From positions 61,884 through 125,883 of the forward strand of contig CAMPDV010001210.1 in the NCBI GenBank assembly GCA_946699065.1: a stretch of 64,000 nucleotides of DNA, in the 5' to 3' direction. The first letter of the stretch is position 1; every line of letters starts with the position of its first letter. This DNA comes from Loxodes magnus (lineage: Eukaryota > Ciliophora > Karyorelictea > Loxodida > Loxodidae). Shown piece after piece: positions 1 to 29,187 of the stretch. The notes beneath the pieces were generated by a model. The model was not told the origin of the DNA, ran no database searches, and was given only the letters and a program-made list of their open reading frames with translations. The translations under genes were made by a program, and so were the position numbers.

Positions 1-3000
1 TATGATTATACGGTGAGACTATGGGACGTCAAGACAGGTACCTGTAAGACCATGAGTGGTCACACTAGTTCTGTATCATCTGTGGCTATATCCAGTAATT
101 CAGAGTTCATCGTATCGGGAAGTTATGATTAGACGGTGAGACTATGGGACGTCAAGACAGGTACCTGTAAGACCATGAATGGTCACACACATTATGTATG
201 TGCTGTGGCTATATCCAGTAATTCAGAGTTCATCGTATCGGGAAGTTATGATTAGACGGTGAGACTATGGGACGTCAAGACAGGTACCTGTAAGACCATG
301 AGTGGTCACACTAATTATGTATGATCTGTGGCTATATCCAGTAATTCAGAGTTCATCGCATCGGGAAGTTATGATTAGACGGTGAGACTATGGGACGTCG
401 AGACAGGTACCTGTAAGACCATGAGTGGTCACACTAATTATGTATGATCTGTGGCTATATCCAGTAATTCAGAGTTCATCGTATCGGGAAGTGTAGATTA
501 GACGGTGAGACTATGGGACGTCAAGACAGGTACCTGTAAGACCATGAGTGGTCACACTAATTAGGTATATGCTGTGGCTATATCCAGTAATTCAGAGTTC
601 ATCGTATCGGGAAGTTATGATTAGACGGTGAGACTATGGGACGTCAAGACAGGTACCTGTAAGACCATGAGTGGTCACACTAATTATGTATGATCTGTGG
701 CTATATCCAGTAATTCAGAGTTCATTGTATCGGGAAGTAGAGATAATACGGCGAGACTATGGGACGTCAAGACAGGTACCTGTAAGACCATGAATGGTCA
801 CACTAATTATGTATGATCTGTGGCTATATCCAGTAATTCAGAGTTCATCGTATCGGAAAGTTATGATTAGACGGTGAGACTATGGGACGTCAAGACAGGT
901 ACCTGTAAGACCATGAGTGGTCACACTAATTATGTATATGCTGTGGCTATATCCAGTAATTCAGAGTTCATCGTATCGGGAAGTTATGATTAGATTGTGA
1001 GACTATGGGACGTCAAGACAGGTACCTGTAAGACCATGAGTGGTCACACACATTATGTATATGCTGTGGCTATATCCAGTAATTCAGAGTTCATCGTATC
1101 GGGAAGTTATGATTAGACGGTGAGACTATGGGACGTCAAGACAGGTACCTGTAAGACCATGAGTAGTCACACTAATTAGGTATGATCTGTGGCTATATCC
1201 AGTAATTCAGAGTTCATCGCATCGGGAAGTTATGATTAGACGGTGAGACTATGGGACGTCGAGACAGGTACCTGTAAGACCATGAGTGGTCACACTAATT
1301 AGGTATGATCTGTGGCTATATCCAGTAATTCAGAGTTCATCGTATCGGGAAGTGTAGATTAGACGGTGAGACTATGGGACGTCAAGACAGGTACCTGTAA
1401 GACCATGAGTGGTCACACTAATTAGGTATATGCTGTGGCTATATCCAGTAATTCAGAGTTCATCGTATCGGGAAGTGTAGATTAGACGGTGAGACTATGG
1501 GACGTCAAGACAGGTACCTGTAAGACCATGAGTGGTCACACTAATTAGGTATGATCTGTGGCTATATCCAGTAATTCAGAGTTCATCGTATCGGGAAGTT
1601 ATGATTAGACGGTGAGACTATGGGACGTCAAGACAGGTACCTGTAAGACCATGAGTGGTCACACTAATTAGGTATGATCTGTGGCTATATCCAGTAATTC
1701 AGAGTTCATCGTATCGGGAAGTGTAGATTAGACGGTGAGACTATGGGACGTCAAGACAGGTACCTGTAAGACCATGAGTGGTTACACCAGTTATTTATGA
1801 TCTGTGGCTATATCCAGTGATTCAGAGTTCATCGTATCGGGAAGTTATGATAAGACGGTGAGACTATGGGACGTCAAGACAGGTACCTGTAAGACCATGA
1901 GTGGTCACACTAGTTCTGTATATGCTGTGGCTATATCCAGTGATTCAGAGTTCATCGTATCGGGAAGTTATGATTATACGGTGAGACTATGGGACGTCAA
2001 GACAGGTACCTGTAAGACCATGAGTGGTCACACTAGTTCTGTATATGCTGTGGATATATCCAGTGATTCAGAGTTCATCGTATCGGGAAGTGTAGATTCA
2101 ACGGTGAGACTATGGGACGTCAAGACAGGTACCTGTAAGACCATGAGTGGTCACACTAGTTCTGTATATGCTGTGGCTATATCCAGTGATTCAGAGTTCA
2201 TCGTATCGGGAAGTAGAGATAATACGGTGAGACTATGGGACGTCAAGACAGGTATCTGTAAGACCATGAGTGGTTACACTAGTTATTTATGATCTGTGGC
2301 TATATCCAGTGATTCAGAGTTCATCGTATCGTGAAGTAGAGATAATACGGTGAGACTATGGGACGTCAAGACAGGTACTTGTAAGACCATGAGTGGTCAC
2401 ACTAGTTCTGTATGATCTGTGGCTATATCCAGTGATTCAGAGTTCATCGTATCGGGAAGTTAAGATTATACGGTGAGACTATGGGACGTCAAGACAGGTA
2501 CCTGTAAGACCATGAGTGGTCACAAAGATTATGTATATGCTGTGGCTATATCCAGTGATTCAGAGTTCATCGTATCGGGAAGTTAAGATTATACGGTGAG
2601 ACTATGGGACGTCAAGACAGGTACCTGTAAGACCATGAGTGGTCACAAAGATTATGTATATGCTGTGGCTATATCCAGTAATTCAGAGTTCATCGTATCG
2701 GGAAGTTATGATTAGACGGTGAGACTATGGGACGTCAAGACAGGTACCTGTAAGACCATGAGTGGTCACACTAATTATGTATATGCTGTGGCTATATCCA
2801 GTAATTCAGAGTTCATCGTATCGGGAAGTTATGATTAGATTGTGAGACTATGGGACGTCAAGACAGGTACCTGTAAGACCATGAGTGGTCACACTAGTTA
2901 TGTATCATCTGTGGCTATATCCAGTGATTCAGAGTTCATCGTATCGGGAAGTTATGATTATACGGTGAGACTATGGGACGTCAAGACAGGTACCTGTAAG

Positions 3001-29187: not shown

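Follow-up and report, generated by a model that had tools for sequence, protein, structure and literature searches.

The closest described counterparts of the repeats analysed here are the NWD/HNWD proteins of the fungus Podospora anserina (het-d, het-e and het-r), which are NACHT proteins with highly alike WD40 repeats (PMC1805685, PMC2873952). As the available sections of these papers report, two codon pairs of the Podospora repeat, 7/9 and 25/27, each arranged around a conserved codon, lie on the top surface of the propeller at a spacing of 18 and are under positive selection (PMC1805685, PMC2873952). A spacing of 18 also appears among the structure-defined contact residues of the WD40 top face, termed R1-2, R1 and D-1, which are residues 16, 18 and 34 of the Gbeta repeat (PMC3419727). 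Highly repetitive kinase-WD40 proteins of cyanobacteria and planctomycetes resemble the present case in repeat identity and in the joining of a kinase to WD40, but the available sections of their description deal with ordinary-size single genes and mention no 126-kb arrays (PMC5587647), and the ciliate kinase scores best with PF07714.

For Loxodes magnus, the published macronuclear (MAC) assembly spans 706 Mb, of which 231 Mb are low-complexity tandem repeats masked with TRF (PMC11441545). The term WD40 does not occur in the main text of that paper, and its available sections describe neither a coding origin nor variable recognition codons for these repeats; in the open-licence PMC literature, a scope that does not extend to bioRxiv, we found no paper on WD40 arrays in Loxodes. 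The genetic code of the genus has already been published as NCBI table 27, with TAA/TAG as Gln and TGA as Trp or stop (PMC11441545, PMC4967479), and a code in which all three stops can be sense has also been reported for the karyorelict Parduczia (PMC4967479).

Here, we analyse a window of 64,000 nucleotides from this genome, meaning by "window" the whole stretch of DNA examined. We propose, with a probability of about two in three, that it is a satellite-like array in the Loxodes magnus macronuclear genome, derived from coding sequence and made up of WD40 recognition blades.

Results

A contig composed entirely of WD40 units

The window occupies C1210:61884-125883, the right end of a 125,883-bp contig (C1210) in an assembly totalling 705,730,643 bases in 7,843 contigs. 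Over its full length TRF finds a period of 123 bp with 520 copies, 96% matches and one orientation throughout (Table 1). The remaining 61,883 bases of C1210, to the left of the window, hold the same array, so that the contig is array from end to end, with 1,012 unit anchors (at most two mismatches). When all three stops are read as sense, each 123-bp unit encodes a 41-residue WD40 blade. Exact duplications of up to 1,735 bp, mostly offset by multiples of 123, occur within the contig, which shows the long-segment copying, homogenised units and little constraint expected of a satellite.

Table 1. Features of the window, in window coordinates.
Feature	Position	Strand	Basis or remark
Tandem array of 123-bp (41-codon) WD40 units, ~520 copies	1..64000	+	TRF
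Unbroken reading frame, 9,729 codons	1..29187	+	part of the C1210:39147-91175 run
Example unit	1..123	+	codon tables; hypervariable codons recur at multiples of 123 up to 29187
Example-unit codons 1 and 3: D-1 and the residue following Asp	1-3, 7-9	+	position names from available sections of PMC3419727, PMC1805685
Example-unit codons 24 and 26: R1-2 and R1	70-72, 76-78	+	position names from available sections of PMC3419727, PMC1805685
1-bp deletion, first frame break	29188..29188	+	
Patch of 19 deletions of 1-5 bp	39651..40399	+	probably uncorrected sequence
Patch of 96 single-base insertions and 4 deletions	49884..58510	+	probably uncorrected sequence
Single 1-bp insertion	62281..62281	+	

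Related sequences were sought at several levels. A loose first look with PF00400 across the assembly gave 98,962 candidate places, of which 150 were scored; if most candidates are real, WD40 blades would occupy, as a rough guess, ~12 Mb genome-wide, a minor share of the 231 Mb masked as repeats. A 28-base framework word was not matched exactly anywhere in GTDB contigs or in IMG/VR, collections from which records of this genome itself may have been left out. Among public proteins, the closest to the stop-free window segment 1804-2289 is 53% identical (best 120 of 8,000 candidates scored), and among 1,402 candidate proteins of ~5,350 to 17,000 residues, three match the first 500 residues of the window at 31-33% identity, the named one being bacterial.

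The genetic code read from conserved genes

The preliminary description had taken TAA, TAG and TGA all to be sense, as Gln, Gln and Trp, and had proposed a check of the code against conserved proteins of the same assembly. CCT-family genes bear this out: all 29 matches in the assembly carry TAA and TAG in frame. In CCT zeta, 7 of 19 TAR codons fall at Gln of the solved CCT zeta chain, which makes Gln the top residue, while 3 fall at Lys and 9 are scattered. The one TGA of CCT eta is codon 436, a position that is TGG in the paralogue L023 and Trp in the solved chain; TGA appears once apiece inside 7 of the 29 matches, and the Trp reading comes from the CCT eta site alone. Across ten of these loci, TAR outnumbers CAR (186 to 70) and TGG outnumbers TGA (24 to 1). 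About full length is reached by 22 of the 29 matches, several of which form close paralogue pairs.

An earlier suggestion that the WD40 consensus itself singles out Gln and Trp was not supported, since PF00400 scores of the first 14 units are similar with other residues: 494 bits for Gln/Trp, 496, 489 and 486 with TGA as Arg, Ser or Cys, and 505, 480 and 464 with TAR as Lys, Glu or Tyr, compared with 453 for X. Because these scores hardly discriminate between residue choices, we no longer used the fit to the consensus to judge the code and relied on the CCT genes. The Gln/Gln/Trp code is correct, yet already known; the assembly is an instance of the karyorelict nuclear code of table 27 and does not differ from it.

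Stop-type codons and the open frame

We counted stop-type codons in 438 of the 521 window units, setting aside gapped units and units in the two indel patches. In these clean units, 925 stop-type codons stand in frame: 384 units have TAG at codon 3 and 243 have it at codon 24, 294 have TGA at codon 26 and one has it at codon 40, and 3 have TAA at codon 1. No further codon carries any, and 21 of the 438 units carry none at all. The initial observation that in-frame stops are almost confined to codons 1, 3, 24 and 26 is borne out for all but one of the 925, as is its counterpart that other near-stop codons stay sense, with Trp 8, Cys 15, Lys 16, Ser 34, Glu 35 and Ser 39 sense in 438/438. The left part of C1210 (485 units) adds TGA at codons 40 (12) and 15 (1) and TAA at codons 34 (4) and 21 (1).

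A frame of about 9,700 codons up to the first indel had been predicted, and the measured length (Table 1) agrees. The longest in-frame run of the contig, C1210:39147-91175, covers 17,343 codons or 52 kb. As assembled, C1210 comprises 52 frame segments, many of them due to error patches and 16 breaks due to one copied deletion; no uninterrupted frame with a start and a stop occurs in the contig, which the array fills without either of its ends being present. Such openness is no evidence for a gene, because under three reassigned stops every frame is open.

Codon usage sets the array apart from conserved genes. TGA makes up 149 of the 9,729 codons of window 1..29187 (1.53%) versus 1 of 4,946 (0.02%) in the ten CCT genes, and a TGA frequency of 0.12% has been reported for Parduczia in the available part of PMC4967479. 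TAR density is 3.3% in the array versus 3.8% in CCT genes, the array using nearly all TAG and the CCT genes mostly TAA. The GC content of the window is 0.43 versus 0.32-0.36 in the ten CCT genes, and GC3 is 0.43-0.45 in consensus units versus 0.15-0.24; GC-biased gene conversion in recombining repeats would explain the raised GC3.

Three array families vary at the same recognition codons

The array of the window and of C1210 as a whole defines family F1. Two further families, with DNA unlike that of F1, have 126-bp units: F2 on contigs C119, C9 and C1503, and F3 on C272. By amino-acid entropy, the five most variable codons of F1, in the window together with the left part, are 1, 3, 23, 24 and 26; those of F2 (C9) and F3 (C272) are 1, 3, 24, 25 and 27, which are the same aligned positions. 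The less diverse C119 and C1503 agree partly, sharing codons 27 and 1 and in part 3 and 25, with additional variation at 19, 20 and 22. On C1503 (L001-L008), 88 of 175 unit readings also have TGA at codon 19; these loci overlap, which inflates copy counts, and the pooled selection test described below uses variant types only.

In F1, codon 24 is R1-2, codon 26 is R1, codon 1 is D-1 and codon 3 is the residue following Asp; Val 25 is enclosed by the pair 24/26 and Asp 2 by the pair 1/3, at a spacing of 18. Most of the variation of the arrays falls in codons for the recognition surface of the WD40 propeller, and the 923 F1 units display 95 four-residue combinations at these codons. Stop-type codons occupy the recognition codons because they are usable there as Gln or Trp and because change is centred on those codons.

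Diversified surface, near-neutral framework in C1210

For the selection tests, the four positions were taken from the Podospora papers, the variation having been noticed before those were consulted; the tests are variant counts and not a site model on a tree. Pooling the three families, single-base variant types at the four codons number 1 synonymous to 28 non-synonymous (5.1 synonymous expected), compared with 34 to 71 elsewhere (24.9 synonymous expected; Fisher p 0.0014). Multi-base codon changes are likewise concentrated, accounting for 35 of 64 at the four codons versus 21 of 126 elsewhere (p 2e-7). The pooled test thereby indicates diversifying selection on the two top-surface codon pairs. 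Taken singly, the synonymous test is not significant for C1210 (0/12 vs 16/56, p 0.055), the window (p 0.16), F2 (p 0.14) or F3 (p 0.12). For multi-base changes, the separate p values are 5e-5 (C1210), 3e-5 (window) and 3e-4 (F2), and F3 fails the test (p 1.0). Amino-acid variety at the hot codons is suggestive only, with 106 residues from 111 codon states, a value that random-codon simulation (means 99.8 or 101.2) reached in 29 or 94 of 2,000 runs. A further test, with p 8.5e-7, was set aside, as its five codons had been picked partly from the data and the three F2 arrays were counted apart.

Between F1, F2 and F3, framework divergence is 0.62-0.80 for pS versus 0.24-0.32 for pN. This excess of pS over pN, together with the diversified surface, leads us to conclude that the blades were coding. 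Within C1210, the framework (variable codons excluded) shows 16 synonymous and 36 non-synonymous types, the neutral expectation being 15.3 and 42.7, and among types present in one or two copies 4 of 21 are synonymous; the C1210 framework now looks near neutral, with protein constraint largely gone. The other arrays seem to be under stronger constraint, with synonymous to non-synonymous framework types of 5:5 in C119, 7:8 in C9 and 5:8 in C272 and omega of 0.29-0.44, on 10-15 types each.

Indel patches and a copied frameshift

Alignment of the window units gives 121 indel events, of which 119 lie within the two patches and only two outside (Table 1). Inserted bases repeat a neighbouring base in 88 of 97 cases, and both patches probably represent sequencing error or uncorrected sequence; we do not hold them against a giant gene. 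A different pattern is seen at C1210:419-17624, where sixteen 122-bp units that otherwise differ share one 1-bp deletion (GTGATTCAGAG to GTGATCAGAG). The deletion rides in exact duplications of 644-699 bp (C1210 1215/6992, 7047/10981 and 1270/10981); a frame-destroying change was copied instead of removed. Were the assembler to have duplicated segments, the 16 copies would equal fewer real ones.

In the F2 arrays of C9 and C119, odd-length units inspected by eye break near variable codons. All 13 such units of two C9 stretches (L031, L030) have their indel within or next to codon 1, 3 or 27, and both of those in C119 (L026-L027) have it at codon 1 or, by three bases, beside codon 25. The odd-length units of C272 (2 deletions, codon 8) and C1503 (3, in homopolymers) break away from the variable codons. 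Averaging of unlike units by the assembler may be the simplest cause of the F2 indels at variable codons, the alternative being a real local process.

A kinase-WD40 gene carrying F2 blades

On contig C512, we modelled a gene at L057:1902-3814 (within C512:156001-162000) that joins a kinase, for which PF07714 is the best-scoring family (1.4e-56), to seven WD40 blades. The model, whose start, intron and stop are read from the DNA alone, begins with an ATG at 1902, contains a 20-bp GT-AG intron at 2920-2939, and closes with a TGA at 3812 followed by AT-rich sequence. This inferred intron agrees with the sizes published for Loxodes magnus, given in the available part of PMC11441545 as mode 17 and mean 19.3 bp. 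Five of the blades belong to F2 and are nearly identical; the remaining two, the end blades, are divergent. Compared with their nearest F2 array units, four unit-long windows placed on the alike blades show 2-5 differences in 111 framework bases, and a fifth that reaches into the first end blade shows 45-47. The surface residues change from blade to blade, and an in-frame TGA lies at R1 of blade 5. GC3 within the gene is 0.49 in the repeats, 0.37 in the end blades and 0.29 in the kinase part. Among the 120 public-protein matches listed for the kinase-WD40 protein there is no ciliate; those with a named organism are bacterial or fungal, and most name none. The blades of C512-type kinase sensors are a plausible origin of the arrays, and a tie of F1 to kinase genes would hold by analogy with F2.

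Edges of other arrays

Where other arrays end, at both ends of C9 and the left end of C119, the edges are abrupt, lie in AT-rich DNA and have no kinase or end blades. GC falls from about 0.45 in the array to 0.12-0.37 in the flanks; at the left end of the C9 array (L058), a degraded unit with two TGA codons is followed at once by a drop from 0.46 to 0.14, and no end blades are present. Candidate ATG start codons stand in frame upstream of the C9 and C119 arrays, and C9 ends on in-frame TGAs. Three peptides upstream of these two arrays gave no Pfam match above the cut-off. One coding-looking stretch of ~100 residues lies just upstream of the C119 array (L026:1-330), likewise with no Pfam match above cut-off. 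In blastn, the C119 left flank gave a single 58-base match, to C9 left, when compared with C9 right, C9 left and the part upstream of the C512 gene.

No NACHT domain precedes the repeats at the array edges seen. The assembly has 31 NACHT matches, all weak, with one on an array-bearing contig (C9:314844), far from the array; a simple WD40 pattern found nothing within 1.5 kb on either side of 4 of the 31 loci. Contig C256 has five weak NACHT-like matches.

Discussion

Combining unit statistics, conserved genes and a comparison of three array families, our work points to blades that have a coding past and, in C1210, a satellite-like present. We suggest that blades of a sensor protein were diversified by selection at four recognition codons, that they would have spread through unequal crossing-over and gene conversion, and that F1-type arrays may have multiplied past the need of any single protein. 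Several findings pull against this reading. A 52-kb frame is kept and only two window indels fall outside the patches, neither of which a neutral satellite need show; TAR density is CCT-like; the frameworks of other arrays are more constrained; taken family by family, the synonymous test is not significant and the multi-base test fails for F3; and possible ATG and TGA codons occur at the C9 and C119 edges.

The likeness to the Podospora NWD/HNWD repeats lies in near-identical WD40 units (96% over 520 copies, the high repeat identity typical of NWD-type repeats) and in changes at two codon pairs with a spacing of 18, here 24/26 and 1/3. In contrast to Podospora, where an active allele has about ten repeats plus NACHT according to the available sections of PMC12222747, the Loxodes arrays run to about a thousand units, the one gene seen carries a kinase, the code is reassigned, and the array edges seen have no NACHT. 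The Loxodes blades work like the Podospora repertoire and are not an NWD member, because the NACHT part is lacking.

The preliminary description had read the window as a possible giant WD40 gene. On such a reading the array would be translated as a string of propellers through at least 17,343 codons of one frame, with TAA/TAG as Gln and TGA as Trp. A frame maintained over 52 kb, a unit length divisible by three, a code that permits it, a GC of 0.43 that exceeds both the 0.12-0.37 measured beside two other arrays and the 0.32-0.36 of ten CCT genes, and the possible ATG and TGA at the edges of other arrays would all suit such a gene. However, one frameshift has been copied into 16 units of the same contig, the C1210 framework is near neutral, TGA is used at 1.5% of codons against 1 in 4,946 though it is the only stop of the code, C1210 contains no start or end, and both C9 ends and the left C119 end stand bare of kinase and end blades, with no Pfam domain above cut-off upstream. 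In its assembled form the C1210 array does not make up a single open reading frame, and we regard the giant gene as improbable. Nor does a pseudogene satellite in the standard code, whose true stops would suit the decay of one large ORF, retain any appreciable probability: the CCT-family matches, 29 of 29 full of in-frame TAA and TAG, refute it for these two codons, and the single Trp site of CCT eta and the published code do so for TGA.

It is conceivable, though we think it unlikely, that the arrays are silent reservoirs whose units serve as conversion donors for blades in expressed kinase-WD40 sensor genes and so renew the recognition surface. The four C512 windows that share 106-109 of 111 framework bases with F2 units (the window at the first end blade differing at 45-47), the variation of the same codons in the C512 gene and the arrays, and the 95 combinations among F1 units would be expected of such exchange. 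The likeness could equally reflect recent common descent, however, exchange between array and gene is conjectural, and frameshifted units would make poor donors. Hypervariability could also be an artefact, through averaging of unlike units, or mutational, through faster mutation for DNA reasons. The breaks in or beside variable codons in all 13 C9 and both C119 odd-length units are what averaging would produce, and the two window patches resemble uncorrected reads; yet odd-length units of C272 and C1503 break elsewhere, the variable positions are identical in three families of unlike DNA and equal those of a fungus, and synonymous changes amount to 1 of 29 at the variable codons against 34 of 105 elsewhere, which leaves this explanation very little room. 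We therefore retain the coding-derived, satellite-like array as our reading of the window.

These observations carry a caution: where the code has no dedicated stop, finding a frame open proves nothing. At the same time, some masked Loxodes tandem repeats are coding-derived and should not be discarded before gene search. More speculatively, and against the odds as we judge them, kinase-linked WD40 sensors may draw new blades from huge genomic cassette archives in which reassigned stops serve as Gln and Trp at the recognising residues; if this is true, part of the masked low-complexity repeat DNA would be an immune or mating-type-like repertoire. WD40 recognition repeats with a diversified top surface are known from fungi; a ciliate in which the same four codons vary, within kinase-linked arrays roughly a hundredfold longer, would make this a repeated evolutionary solution.
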